From a virus: 23,354 nt of DNA. The DNA lies in IMG/VR virus record IMGVR_UViG_3300048555_000201, positions 1-23,354 of that record; one strand, given 5' to 3'. Shown piece by piece: positions 7,177 through 17,487 of the stretch (within the stretch, counting starts at the first letter, position 1; the number at the start of each line of letters is the position of its first letter). The notes under the pieces were generated by a model. The model searched no databases. It was not told where the DNA came from and worked only from the letters and a program-made list of their open reading frames with translations. The position numbers and the translations under genes were made by a program.

Positions 7177-7388
7177 CTTTTCTTTAGGATTCTGCTGATG
7201 TGTATCTCCTGCGCCTTCTCTTTGTCCTTGATTGTGTCCGCCATGACTTTCATCAGATGATCTTTAATGGCTTCTGCCGCCCTATCTTTTGGAACCGACT
7301 TTAAATCCAGTTGAGACATGGCGTTGCCTAGCTCACTTACCGTTATGTTCGACTCAAGCGCGTCTTTCTGTACGTTTTTAATCTTCAT
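7173..7388 (-). CDS. Small helical protein between terminase subunits, unknown
   Basis: A 71-residue, highly charged, all-helical-looking protein (starts MKIKNVQKDA, ends ISRILKKR). It overlaps the small-terminase candidate by 11 bases and the large terminase by 4 bases (ATGA), so its translation is tied to both. A GGAGG lies 14 bases upstream, rather far. There is no recognisable motif. Its position suggests a packaging accessory, but that is inference. I do not recognise the family. Confidence 0.7.
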   Translation of the reverse strand: MKIKNVQKDALESNITVSELGNAMSQLDLKSVPKDRAAEAIKDHLMKVMADTIKDKEKAQEIHISRILKKR

Positions 7389-7836
7389 GGTCTACTACTG
7401 TGCCTCCTTCTACCTCTATTTCCGAAACTCCCTGCGCTATTGCTTCCAATTCATCACGAGATAAGTCGGTTAGAGACTTTGTTGTGTGTTCATGTTGGTG
7501 AAAGTTGGCATTTAGGTCTGGAACTACTTTGTTTAGTAGGATTCCGAAGACCCTAGCCTGTGTAGGGTTCCATTCTTTAGCCCCCATTACCACCTGATGC
7601 GCGTCATTTAGCTGATCTCGCATATATGTGGCTATCTCGGCCCTGATCTTTCCGCTTTCTGCGGGGGTTAGTTTATGTGTTGTGGTTAATGATGTCATTT
7701 CACTGGCCTTCTTTAAGTGTGGAGCCGTCCTTCTGCACTCCATTGAACAAAACTTGCGTCGATCTTTATGGTAAGCCTTGGTTGAGAACTCTTTTCCGCA
7801 GTTCTGGCACGTTATTTCTACTGTACTCCCTGTCAT
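7378..7836 (-). CDS. Zinc-finger small-terminase candidate
   Basis: A 152-residue protein immediately upstream of the terminase genes. The N-terminus has a four-Cys zinc ribbon (C10xxC13 and C30xxxC34). The middle has helices IRAEIATYMRDQLNDAHQVV and the segment NPTQARVFGILLNKVVPDL, which resembles DNA-binding small subunits or related packaging proteins in other phages. The tail LTDLSRDELEAIAQG is also typical. It would recognise the packaging start and regulate the large subunit. No ribosome site precedes its ATG; the start overlaps an upstream short ORF as ATGA, suggesting translational coupling. The zinc ribbon is visible; the small-terminase role is inferred from position and the central motif. 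Confidence 0.7.
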   Translation of the reverse strand: MTGSTVEITCQNCGKEFSTKAYHKDRRKFCSMECRRTAPHLKKASEMTSLTTTHKLTPAESGKIRAEIATYMRDQLNDAHQVVMGAKEWNPTQARVFGILLNKVVPDLNANFHQHEHTTKSLTDLSRDELEAIAQGVSEIEVEGGTVVDHED

Positions 7837-8000: not shown

Positions 8001-8165
8001 TTCATCTCCCTTCGTAGGGGTGTTTGTGTGTATTTGCGGGCGCACGTTTTGGAACTGATCCCCGCGAGCGCACAAACGATGGTCTGAAAGACCTCACCCT
8101 CAATCATTTCAACAGCTTACAAATCCACCATGGCGGTGTCGTCCCTCGTGTACGCGTGTGTGCAA

Positions 8166-8182
8166 TCCGAAGGAACTTTTAG
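8166..8182 (+). repeat. Leader repeat copy 1 (core AAGGAACTTTTAG)
   Basis: The 17-base sequence TCCGAAGGAACTTTTAG is identical to copy 2, 65 bases downstream. Five bases after it a hairpin forms: GAGGTCGGC (8188-8196) pairs with GCCGATCTC (8203-8211) around a 6-base loop, with one G-T wobble. The repeat-then-hairpin layout is shared with copies 2 and 3. Confidence 0.75.
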
Positions 8183-8230
8183 GCTGAGAGGTCGGCTCGG
8201 TTGCCGATCTCGGGTCGTGACACATGCGGT

Positions 8231-8247
8231 TCCGAAGGAACTTTTAG
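8231..8247 (+). repeat. Leader repeat copy 2
   Basis: An exact 17-base repeat of copy 1, ending 39 bases before the first early gene at 8287. Two bases after it TGACG (8250-8254) pairs with CGTCA (8260-8264) around a 5-base loop. It shares 15 bases (AAGGAACTTTTAGTG) with copy 3. Confidence 0.75.
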
Positions 8248-8286
8248 TGTGACGATCAACGTCAAATCAACAACGGAGAAACGCAC

Positions 8287-8730
8287 ATGACACTCACACG
8301 AGAAACCGCAATCGAAGCAATCCAAGCAAGCCCTTTCGCGGGTTGCACACTCACGGACGTAGCCAAAGGCTACGCTGTCAAGAAAACGCACAAGGACGCA
8401 GTCGCGTACCTCGCCGCCAAAGCGATGGTCACCTCGCGCAAGCGTTGGCTCAACGCACACAAAGCCGCCGTAGGCGGTGACGACCTTCGCATGGCCGCAT
8501 ACGCTGCCGAAGGCAGAGCCGAGACCAACACCGCATGGGCGGAAGTGCGCAAGGCTGAGTCCGACGCACCTGCCAAGCCGAAGGCTTCCAAGCCCAAGGC
8601 CAAAGCCAAGGCACCCGTGACGCCGAAGGCTGACAACCTCGATGCGCTTGCAGAGCAACTCGTTGCTCTCGACGATGCCGCCTTCACGAAGTTCACAGCG
8701 AAGCTGATCTCGCTCAAAACTGGCAAGTAA
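8287..8730 (+). CDS. First early protein with a Lys/Ala/Pro-rich histone-tail-like linker
   Basis: A 147-residue protein with a GGAG site upstream of its ATG. Residues 1-90 look like a helical domain (TLTDVAKGYAVKKTHKDAVAYLAAKAMV and further Ala-rich helices). Residues 93-115 are a low-complexity linker rich in Lys, Pro and Ala, like the tails of histone H1-like and HU-like DNA-binding proteins. Residues 118-145 form a short second helical region (LDALAEQLVALDDAAFTKFTAKL). It is the first plus-strand gene after the divergent region and is followed by a strong terminator, so it is probably abundantly transcribed as a single-gene unit. Nucleic-acid binding is suggested by the basic linker. The family is not recognised. 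Confidence 0.8.
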   Translation: MTLTRETAIEAIQASPFAGCTLTDVAKGYAVKKTHKDAVAYLAAKAMVTSRKRWLNAHKAAVGGDDLRMAAYAAEGRAETNTAWAEVRKAESDAPAKPKASKPKAKAKAPVTPKADNLDALAEQLVALDDAAFTKFTAKLISLKTGK

Positions 8731-8750
8731 GCGCGAGCACTTAACCCACC

Positions 8751-8785
8751 AAGCCTCACACCCTCGCGGGTGTGGGGTTTTTTTT
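8751..8785 (+). terminator. Rho-independent terminator after the first early gene
   Basis: CACACCC (8757-8763) pairs perfectly with GGGTGTG (8768-8774) around a TCGC tetraloop. The stem extends outward through CCT/GGG and AAG/TTT pairs, and is followed by eight Ts (8778-8785). This is the clearest intrinsic terminator in the window. It lies between the genes at 8287 and 8812, so downstream expression needs read-through or another promoter. Confidence 0.9.
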
Positions 8786-8811
8786 GTGTCTAAACCAACG
8801 GAGGTACACAC

Positions 8812-9009
8812 ATGGACGGACAACAACAACGACGACGCACTCCCACGTGGGTCGAGAACACGCTTGGATGGATTGGAACGGGCGCGTTCGGCTTCTTCTT
8901 CGCGTGGATGATAATCAACTGGCTATTGGGCTGTGGCGAGTCATTCCCGATGGCAGATGGTTCACGCATGATGGGCGAATGCTTGTCGATCCTGCCGTGG
9001 AGGTGGTGA
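8812..9009 (+). CDS. Small single-pass membrane protein
   Basis: A 65-residue protein with an excellent ribosome site (GGAGGT, six bases before ATG). The N-terminus is polar and basic (DGQQQRRR), then one hydrophobic segment of about 20 residues (LGWIGTGAFGFFFAWMIINW) and a short Cys-containing tail. The positive N-terminus suggests that end stays in the cytoplasm. There is no lipobox or enzymatic motif. Tiny membrane proteins early in phage operons often affect superinfection or the host envelope, but no such role can be read here. Holin is possible in size, but it is far from the lysin gene. Confidence 0.75.
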   Translation: MDGQQQRRRTPTWVENTLGWIGTGAFGFFFAWMIINWLLGCGESFPMADGSRMMGECLSILPWRW

Positions 9010-9019
9010 CAGCCTCACA

Positions 9020-9041
9020 CGCACACACACACATGTGTGCG
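9020..9041. promoter_or_regulatory. Hairpin CGCACACA/TGTGTGCG
   Basis: A perfect 8-base inverted repeat around a CACACA loop lies just after the small membrane-protein stop. No T-run follows, so it is more likely an RNA-stability or leader element than a terminator. Confidence 0.45.
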
Positions 9042-9050
9042 CACATTTAT

Positions 9051-9063
9051 AAGGAACTTTTAG
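9051..9063 (+). repeat. Leader repeat copy 3
   Basis: The core AAGGAACTTTTAG recurs here, extended to AAGGAACTTTTAGTG as in copy 2, and preceded by TTTAT. Five bases after it AGCCA (9069-9073) plus TCGA pair with TCGA plus TGGCT (9089-9093), followed by TTT. The next gene starts at 9127. Confidence 0.75.
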
Positions 9064-9126
9064 TGAGAAGCCAGTCGACTTGTCGATTTGGCTTTTCGTC
9101 GTTTTCACAACATCACAGGAGCAATC

Positions 9127-9513
9127 ATGGAAACAACAACTCAACTCGATTTATCGCAATTCACTGGATCAATGCAGTTCGCCAAGTTCGGCCTGACCAA
9201 CAGCGTCATGTCGGAAGGTGTCACGCACGTAGCCAACGAGCTTAATTGCTTCTGGCTTGTGCAGGACATCGACCTCTACATTCGCGATCTTGCGAGGAAG
9301 GGCAAGGACGTCAGCTTCGTTGTTGCTTTCCTCACAGCCAAGGACGACGGAGGCGCAGTTCTGCAACTCCAAGACGGTAACGATAACCACCTCAAGGAAG
9401 TTCACATCCCATACACGGACTTCGACTTCAACGCTGTAAGCGATGATTTCCAGATATGGGCCGCGCCAAACGAGATCAATGGGTACACCCTGTACCTCCC
9501 TCGCGAACACTAA
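9127..9513 (+). CDS. DUF6876-like small protein
   Basis: A 128-residue protein starting METTTQLDLSQFTGSMQF at an ATG with AGGAG five bases upstream. An in-frame earlier start at 9088 lacks a ribosome site. The order LSQFTGS, then GVTHVANELNCFWLVQDID, then a variable strand region, then HIPYTDFDF and a final YTLYLP matches what I recall of the DUF6876 family, small soluble proteins widespread in phages, plasmids and mobile elements with no known function. It lies between repeat copy 3 and the promoter-like site before the ATPase. The family assignment is from memory and moderately secure. Confidence 0.75.
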   Translation: METTTQLDLSQFTGSMQFAKFGLTNSVMSEGVTHVANELNCFWLVQDIDLYIRDLARKGKDVSFVVAFLTAKDDGGAVLQLQDGNDNHLKEVHIPYTDFDFNAVSDDFQIWAAPNEINGYTLYLPREH

Positions 9514-9525
9514 AAAACTTTCAAC

Positions 9526-9566
9526 TTGCGCTAAAGGTGTCTTGTGTGTATCGTAAGTTATACACA
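9526..9566 (+). promoter_or_regulatory. Promoter with palindromic operator upstream of the ATPase gene
   Basis: A possible -35 TTGCGC (9526-9531) is followed, at 17 bases, by TATCGT (9549-9554). A perfect inverted repeat TGTGTAT (9545-9551) / ATACACA (9560-9566), 8 bases apart, covers the -10. AAAGGTGT lies between the boxes. The same arrangement of AAAGGTGT plus a TGTAT/ATACA palindrome occurs at 15667-15695. The boxes are weak; the palindrome is clear. Confidence 0.5.
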
Positions 9567-15884: not shown

Positions 15885-16394
15885 ATGGAACTCACAGAAC
15901 TAATGGCCAGTGTAAGCCGAGTGGAGCACAAGCTAGAAGAACAGACGCAACAGCTAAAACTATTAACTCAAATTGTAACCTTCTTGTCGGAGAAGATCAG
16001 CACAACCACATCGCAAGATGGTGCGGAGACAACCTCACATTCGGTAGCTACGATGACGGAGACACCGAACACGCTATTCAAACTCACCCTAAAGCAACAT
16101 GGAACATTGCAAATGTTGCTTGATGGTAAGTCTAACTTTGAAATAGCTAAAAGATTTGATGTGTCAGAGGACACAGCCAAAGTCTACGTGAGGACAATAG
16201 CCAAGAAGTATGGGGTTAATACACGCGCCCAGATCGTCATGGCTACCTTGGAAGAGTTCAACTCAGTCGGTGATGATGTCTATCAGAGAATATCTGGTGG
16301 TCTGCCTAAAGATTGGCACTCCAATTTCTCTGAGCCAGATCCATTCGCTGACCTATACAGCAGGAAGAAGCATGAGCCTAAATCTAAGTCTTAG
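15885..16394 (+). CDS. LuxR/GerE-type HTH regulator with coiled-coil N-terminus
   Basis: A 169-residue protein with AGGA seven bases before ATG; an in-frame stop lies twelve bases upstream, fixing the start. Residues 1-38 form a coiled coil (RVEHKLEEQTQQLKLLTQIV), probably for dimer formation. Residues 66-122 are a GerE-type HTH: LTLKQHGTLQMLLDGKSNFE, IAKRFDVSEDTAKVYVRTIA, then KYGVNTRAQIV, with the recognition helix around 94-108. There is no receiver or autoinducer domain, so it is a minimal DNA-binder. It lies just downstream of the operator cluster and overlaps the integrase by 23 bases, so they are co-expressed. It is a good candidate for the lysogeny regulator or an integrase control factor. 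Confidence 0.85.
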   Translation: MELTELMASVSRVEHKLEEQTQQLKLLTQIVTFLSEKISTTTSQDGAETTSHSVATMTETPNTLFKLTLKQHGTLQMLLDGKSNFEIAKRFDVSEDTAKVYVRTIAKKYGVNTRAQIVMATLEEFNSVGDDVYQRISGGLPKDWHSNFSEPDPFADLYSRKKHEPKSKS

Positions 16395-17400
16395 GGGTAA
16401 CGTCTGGCAGGTCAATGGAAGCGTCAAAACTTTGACGGGTGACACTGTTCGCGTCAGAAAGTCGACGGGGTTCACGAAACCTGAGAGACGCTACGCCCAA
16501 GTTGTTATGAATAAAATTATGGAAGATGCCCTTCACGGGCGTCTCCCTACCAAAGACGCATCTTCTGGAGTCGAGTACGTCGCCGATGCCATTGATGCTT
16601 TTATCCATCGACCTAGTCCGCCGGGTGAGACAGACGTCAGGGCTTTAATGAAAGTGAAGTCTGAGTTGGGGTCTATCAAGCTAAAGACAATAACAATCGC
16701 TGACTTCATGGATTACTTTTCCAAGCGTCGGATTGCGGCAAACTCTTTGGCGCGTGAAATGACGAGCGTCAACGCCATGATTAGTTATGCGAGAGACGGT
16801 GGCATGTCCGCGCCAGACATCAAACTAAAGAGACCACAGTACGACGACGAGCGAGTAAGGTGGTTGTATCGAGAAGAAATGGATGCGCTTATCGAGGCGT
16901 GTCCACCAGACATCAAGACCCTTGTGGCTTTCCTGTTCTTTACGGGCGCAAGACTTGGTGAGGCTACGTCCTTGAGGTGGAGAGACGTGGTTGGCAACTC
17001 GGCTATCTTTTCTAGCCGCAAGGGTAAGGCCAAGAAGATTAGACGCCGATCAATAATACTTTCTCCATCCATGATTGAGGCCATGGGGGAGAAGGGCGCG
17101 TCTAATGATTATGTTTTCAAGAACACAATCGGAAACAAATGGGATCGAAGTAATTTCTACACATACTTCAACCCTGTTTGCGAAGAGCTAGGGATTGAAG
17201 ACTTCCACCCACATGATTGCAGACACACGTTTGCATCACACCTAGTGCAGAAGGGCGCAAGCCTTGGACACGTGGCCGAACTACTAGGTCACTCGTCTTT
17301 GCAGATGGTGATGAGGTATGCACATTTAGCACCTGCACACCTTGAGAGTACTGTTAGTCTCCTTTGGGATGCTGACACAAAACGGACACAACCCCAATGA
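16372..17400 (+). CDS. int: Tyrosine site-specific recombinase (phage integrase)
   Basis: A 342-residue integrase that would insert the phage into the host chromosome and excise it. I chose the ATG at 16372 (AGGA upstream), since residues before it do not resemble an integrase. An N-terminal arm-binding region is followed by a core-binding domain (about 70-155) and a catalytic domain with R194 (FTGARLGEA), K217, H281 and R284 (HDCRHTF), H307 (LLGHSS) and Y316 (MRYAHL), so all key residues are present. It overlaps the LuxR-type gene and ends 12 bases before a tRNA gene on the other strand, the usual place for an attachment site. Confidence 0.95.
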   Translation: MSLNLSLRGNVWQVNGSVKTLTGDTVRVRKSTGFTKPERRYAQVVMNKIMEDALHGRLPTKDASSGVEYVADAIDAFIHRPSPPGETDVRALMKVKSELGSIKLKTITIADFMDYFSKRRIAANSLAREMTSVNAMISYARDGGMSAPDIKLKRPQYDDERVRWLYREEMDALIEACPPDIKTLVAFLFFTGARLGEATSLRWRDVVGNSAIFSSRKGKAKKIRRRSIILSPSMIEAMGEKGASNDYVFKNTIGNKWDRSNFYTYFNPVCEELGIEDFHPHDCRHTFASHLVQKGASLGHVAELLGHSSLQMVMRYAHLAPAHLESTVSLLWDADTKRTQPQ

Positions 17401-17412
17401 ATAGGGAGTGGA

Positions 17413-17487
17413 TGGTGCTGTCGGAGAGGATTGAACTCTCGACCTCTCACTTACCAAGCGAGTGCTCTACCACTGAGCTACGACAGC
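17413..17487 (-). tRNA. tRNA-Thr (anticodon GGT), CCA encoded
   Basis: The minus strand folds into a complete cloverleaf. The acceptor stem GCTGTCG/CGACAGC is perfect. The D stem is GCTC/GAGC. The anticodon stem CTCGC/GTGAG has one G-T pair, with loop TTGGTAA giving anticodon GGT. The variable loop has 5 bases, the T stem is GAGAG/CTCTC with loop TTCAATC, and the discriminator A and CCA are encoded. Nothing looks degenerate. Sitting next to the integrase, it is either a phage-carried tRNA, a target rebuilt by integration, or part of attP. No second copy of its 3' half was seen in the window. Confidence 0.95.

Follow-up and report, generated by a model that had tools for sequence, protein, structure and literature searches.

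The window analysed here, a linear virus contig of 23.4 kb (the whole record, 23,354 nucleotides), belongs to the CRP-810-type family of marine phages. The terminase shows 80% identity, across 99% of its length, to its counterpart in Roseobacter phage CRP-810, which is temperate and has 57.7 kb. Near the repeated element described below, the gene order is the same as in CRP-810: minus-strand structural genes, a divergent region, and a plus-strand operon that holds gene 1, gene 2, small genes, cobS and cobT. A LuxR-type (GerE) regulator, an overlapping integrase gene and a tRNA-Thr occupy 15885-17487; the integrase gene adjoins the tRNA-Thr (17413-17487, minus strand), an arrangement that matches the integration target reported for CRP-810 (PMC11288001). 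Within the divergent region (8080-8170) lie a stem, GGTCTGAAAGACC, and a block, TTTCAACAnCTTA, that is kept in relatives, followed by TCGTCC before the first copy of the element. The features of the plus-strand side are listed here.

8166 to 8187, plus strand: element copy 1, TCCGAAGGAACTTTTAG followed by GCTGA; the homologous position in CRP-810 is 57604
8188 to 8211, plus strand: hairpin B of copy 1, GAGGTCGGC / GCCGATCTC, 9 bp
8229 to 8247, plus strand: element copy 2, including hairpin 1, GTTCC-GAA-GGAAC, at 8229-8241
8251 to 8263, plus strand: weak hairpin behind copy 2, GACG/CGTC, 4 bp (z -0.7, indistinguishable from chance)
8287 to 8730, plus strand: gene 1, small basic protein of 147 aa, in which the family motif SKRxRW reads TSRKRW and the tail is rich in Lys, Pro and Ala
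8751 to 8785, plus strand: T1, intrinsic terminator behind gene 1, a hairpin of about -18 to -22 kcal/mol and then eight T
8812 to 9009, plus strand: gene 2, small membrane-like protein of 65 aa, starting 26 nt past T1
9047 to 9063, plus strand: element copy 3, upstream arm lost, TTATAAGGAACTTTTAG
9065 to 9097, plus strand: hairpin B of copy 3, 14 bp (z -3.4)
9127 to 9513, plus strand: gene 3, DUF6876 protein of 128 aa (PF21781, 9.5e-20), downstream of copy 3
9546 to 9565, plus strand: GTGTAT-N8-ATACAC, a palindrome overlapping the cobS promoter's -10 region

A preliminary description of this DNA had reported three plus-strand copies of a 13-base core, and exact matches to that core, AAGGAACTTTTAG, were found at 8170-8182, 8235-8247 and 9051-9063, with no others in the window. 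The longer matches it had given were borne out as well, with 17 bases common to copies 1 and 2 (the form TCCGAAGGAACTTTTAG, beginning at 8166 and 8231) and 15 common to copies 2 and 3; the shared stretch is longer than the 13-base core and extends to AAGGAACTTTTAGKSWGA. The copies had also been placed in leaders, and each of the three does stand in front of a gene: copies 1 and 2 precede the 147-aa ORF at 8287-8730, and copy 3 precedes the 128-aa ORF that begins at 9127. The core is the sole 13-mer with three occurrences in the window, and any 13-mer occurring three times was seen in 1 of 200 dinucleotide shuffles. A search of the whole record allowing up to two mismatches found no fourth copy.

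Further copies of the core were present among relatives. About 38 copies from approximately 17 relatives were examined, and they define an element of about 24 nt with the consensus YYCCGAAGGRACTTnTnGGGYGAG, behind which comes a variable hairpin. Three parts can be distinguished: a small hairpin formed by the core itself (hairpin 1), the conserved stretch CTTnTnGGGYGAG, and the hairpin behind it (hairpin B). When 34 copies were aligned on the core, conservation ran from -5 to +19 and nothing upstream was conserved. Two of the relatives, L007 and L018 (approximately 90% terminase identity), carry the element at the two corresponding places, and CRP-810 carries GTCCCGAAGGGACTTCnTG or a near form at 57604, 844 and 1762. 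A scan of cobS relatives added the forms TCCCGAAGGGACTTA, TTCCGAAGGAACTTTTAT, TTCCGAAGGAATTTATG and CACCGAAGGTGCTT. L066, another relative, has GAAGGAACTTAAnnnCGCGAGG in six or seven copies, many of its genes being preceded by one; six copies with their hairpins lie in L066:230-5783, several directly after stop codons and each ahead of a small gene, and the seventh core match, at 7263, is inside the cobS reading frame.

Where longer records could be searched whole, the element was confined to the early cobS-side operon, with three copies in CRP-810 (57.7 kb) and two each in G001 (55.7 kb) and G002 (55.8 kb). A pattern scan of the viral collection yielded one more family member, L170; most matches in other viruses were set aside because their context differs. 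The Cobavirinae phage T5S1, which shares cobS and cobT, has no such element, a terminase-based scan of genome contigs for prophages returned distant relatives only, and an Rfam covariance-model search gave no match at the element region. In L069 (7180-7710), a distant relative, a diverged element with an AAA loop precedes a gene 1 that has no detectable similarity to the other gene 1 proteins.

Hairpin B begins 5 to 9 nt past CTT in most copies and has a median length of 8 bp, reaching 16 bp in some. In 30 of the 38 copies a perfectly paired stem of 7 bp or more starts near the core, compared with 16% of random positions. Its stem and loop differ from copy to copy, G-U pairs are included, and there is no boxB of conserved sequence or loop. 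A hairpin had been claimed after every copy in the window; this stands for copies 1 and 3 (9 and 14 bp) but not for copy 2, whose 4-bp stem is like those of shuffled sequence. The gene 1 leaders of L007 and L018 likewise have a weak hairpin B, and the site corresponding to copy 3 gave z -3.6 in L018 and -2.6 in L007.

Hairpin 1 is absent from the preliminary description. It is a stem of 3 to 6 bp with a 3-base loop (NNCC-GAA-GGNN), and its third pair, which may be C-G, T-A or A-T, is formed in 19 of 22 distinct sequences; this score was reached by none of 2000 shuffles, which ignore relatedness. In L069 it takes the forms TTTCC-AAA-GGAAA and CTTCC-AAA-GGAAG; window copy 3 and the L066 copies are among those that lack it.

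Conservation and covariation of the hairpins among relatives were found, with compensatory change in both. For hairpin B, the site of copy 1 reads GAGATC/GATCTC in CRP-810 and GAGGTC/GACCTC in L048. Across orthologous leaders, 8 double and 22 single changes were consistent with pairing and 4 broke it; the count was made on small automatic alignments, in which one three-member group is misaligned by two bases, and some pairs of the predicted consensus folds lie outside hairpin B. Between lineages the hairpins align poorly. Lineages alter the sequence of the element and keep its pairing.

The genes around the element follow a recurring plan. SKRxRW is present in most members of the gene 1 family, for which no relatives of weight were found in PHROG, Pfam or PDB. 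T1, another feature that the first reading of the window did not include, has a counterpart behind gene 1 in all 17 phages compared (hairpins of -15 to -27 kcal/mol followed by seven to nine T). In 13 of these 17, the conserved gene 2 starts 20 to 36 nt past T1, and the gap holds just a ribosome-binding site; this leaves no room for a promoter, and transcription of gene 2 must therefore pass through T1. A second terminator-like site lies in CRP-810 at 1600-1631, between its second element and the cobS promoter. In L069, gene 1 and its terminator face a convergent gene and gene 2 is lacking.

All 11 cobS leaders that contain the element have a sigma-70-type promoter 42 to 56 nt upstream of the core (TTGACT or TTGTCA, a spacer of about 17, TTATAC), so the element is most likely transcribed there as part of the cobS message. 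This promoter carries the palindrome GTGTAT-N8-ATACAC or its remains, which is likely an operator; the palindrome is conserved in CRP-810 (1707) and relatives, and two more similar ones occur in CRP-810 at 7736 and 16971. The cobS leader of the window keeps the palindrome and lacks the element. No clear promoter was recognised upstream of gene 1, where we infer transcription.

The copies had been described as a repeated, phage-specific leader signal. Among the forms such a signal might take, a regulatory RNA leader fits best; it is favoured by the sigma-70-type promoter upstream, by the compensatory changes in the hairpins and by conservation that reaches no more than about 5 nt upstream from the core. 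A phage-specific promoter, which had also been suggested, is not supported as a promoter of a phage polymerase, since no T7-like or N4-like RNA polymerase was found. Our leading, though tentative, reading is that the element is a cis-acting leader RNA whose most likely role is antitermination, with gene 1 as the candidate factor. Antitermination is favoured because the genes are ordered as in lambda pL-nutL-N-tL1 and because the two-hairpin leader recalls the put RNA of HK022. Lying in the 5' leaders of early messages, where it is most likely read as nascent RNA, the element would, we infer, make RNA polymerase resistant to termination, and the polymerase would then pass T1 into gene 2 and the genes beyond. 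Gene 1, small, basic and beside the first element, would be the most economical candidate for a trans-acting factor; alternatively, the RNA could act alone and without a protein, as HK022 put does. A factor brought by the phage is favoured by the range of hosts reported for CRP-810-type phages, which includes Roseobacter, SAR11 and Sphingomonadaceae (PMC11288001).

Several observations sit less comfortably with antitermination. L069 fits it poorly, since the terminator there simply ends a unit, and a leaky T1 would account for gene 2 without any antitermination. The six or seven copies in L066 speak against the lambda type in particular, in which one site per transcript suffices. The lack of a boxA, the element-free cobS leader of the window, the copies with hairpin 1 lost or hairpin B weak and the want of a clear promoter at gene 1 also count against this reading. 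If antitermination is nevertheless correct, we may be dealing with a new boxA-less processive system of marine alphaproteobacterial phages, in which the core and its paired shape are recognised, possibly by an orphan partner encoded by gene 1, and which is reused before several early genes; we hold this fuller version more loosely still.

An unlikely alternative is that the 24 bp are a promoter, read by a phage RNA polymerase or specificity factor, with transcription starting at the G-rich stretch and hairpin B protecting the mRNA at its 5' end, as happens with T7 class III transcripts. The element is indeed a self-contained block of 24 bp with unconserved sequence upstream, hairpin B begins within 5 to 9 nt of CTT, the copies stand before separate genes, and the sequence is lineage-specific, as in promoters of phage polymerases. 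T1 closes a unit, which would suit this arrangement as well, but gene 2 would then be left without a promoter. The cobS leaders already have their sigma-70-type promoter upstream, and the spacing from the core to GAG varies by several bases between copies. A polymerase to read such promoters is also wanting: PF00940 was absent from CRP-810 and four relatives in a search in which no control genome gave a match either, and the virion protein of 3195-3436 aa has neither an RNA polymerase match nor similarity to the N4 virion RNA polymerase, while the match of CRP-810 gp36 is N-terminal and non-catalytic only.

More specific candidates of this kind were rejected individually. No T7-like polymerase was found in the PF00940 search of CRP-810 and four relatives, and an N4-like virion RNA polymerase with hairpin promoters, to which the size of the giant protein (3200-3400 aa) and the gp36 match had pointed, was discarded because that protein has no polymerase match. 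A -35 box for an ECF sigma factor (GGAAC) was set aside since the core reads GGGAC or GGTGC in relatives and, by eye, no -10 lies at a fixed distance. The giant virion protein is a single chain in G001 (L093:5880-15467) and G004 (L172) and corresponds to three ORFs, gp34, gp35 and gp36, in CRP-810 (L043:21570-31210). There, the N-terminal part of gp36 weakly matches phrog_2206, and gp35 has a weak ADP-ribosyltransferase match and, by eye, the zinc-protease-like motifs HELAH and HEIGH.

A post-transcriptional element of the 5' UTR, which would stabilise the mRNA or control translation of the gene behind it, appears about as improbable as the promoter. The arrangement in L066 suits it, where copies follow stop codons directly and only the hairpin and a ribosome-binding site come before the next start; in all cases hairpin B is close to the start of the gene. 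Such a role would leave T1 and gene 2 unexplained, however, and the distance from the element to the start codon varies from about 50 to 100 nt. The core was also considered as the Shine-Dalgarno sequence of a leader peptide and rejected, the start codons that follow being inconsistent.

We consider it quite improbable that the copies are operators or stoperators, bound as DNA in the prophage by a phage repressor such as the LuxR-type regulator, in the manner of the asymmetric sites of cluster A mycobacteriophages. One-way 13-bp repeats limited to the early genes of an integrating phage, with a partly palindromic core, are what this would predict. A DNA-binding protein, however, needs no hairpin B with G-U pairs, and the arms of the palindrome change in sequence while their pairing is kept. 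The half-sites are 7 bp apart, which we take to be close for a helix-turn-helix dimer, and GTGTAT-N8-ATACAC already resembles an operator for cobS. That the repeats arose by chance or by a recent local duplication without function can practically be dismissed: copies 1 and 2 are 65 bp apart with 17 bases in common and one of them may be recent, but conservation of the same sites throughout the phage family refutes this explanation.

No study of gene timing in CRP-810-type phages was found in the open literature, and in the CRP-810 paper the terms 'promoter' and 'RNA polymerase' are absent and 'motif' appears once. These phages occur widely in the sea. The combination seen here, of a leader signal at a set position, a candidate partner gene and an inbuilt terminator, lends itself directly to a reporter test, and if antitermination is the true function, a mechanism best known from enterobacterial phages would extend to widespread marine phages.

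The element resembles several known systems in part. N4 early promoters are small hairpins with a 3-base purine-rich loop and lie before early genes only, and hairpin 1 has the same kind of loop and the same restriction to positions ahead of early genes; unlike N4, no virion RNA polymerase was found here and a sigma-70-type promoter lies upstream in the cobS leaders. With the SAS/ESAS of cluster K mycobacteriophages, where GGGATAGGAGCCC is at the translation start and the inverted repeat upstream, the element shares a 13-bp one-way repeat with an accompanying inverted repeat, placed ahead of some of the non-structural genes (PMC3203893). In the present phages, however, the hairpin is downstream of the repeat and lies farther from the start codon.

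The series in lambda from nutL through N to tL1 has the same components as this locus, namely a leader RNA element with a hairpin, a gene for a small basic protein, an intrinsic terminator and further early genes. The element is not itself a lambda nut site: there is no boxA (the best matches in the leader have 4 to 5 mismatches, no better than shuffles), hairpin B is variable and cannot be a boxB of fixed sequence, and up to seven copies occur per operon. No search related gene 1 to lambda N. The put RNA of HK022, a temperate phage with terminators downstream of its early promoters, is about 70 nt long and has two long stem-loops downstream of those promoters; one of the stem-loops contains an RNA triplex, and put is known to contact the zinc-binding domain of the beta-prime subunit (PMC9378689). 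Our element may likewise supply early leaders with a tandem pair of stem-loops, hairpin 1 pairing in most but not all copies and hairpin B in most. It differs from put in that hairpin 1 has only 3 to 6 bp and a 3-base loop, and in that the sequence of the core is its most conserved part.
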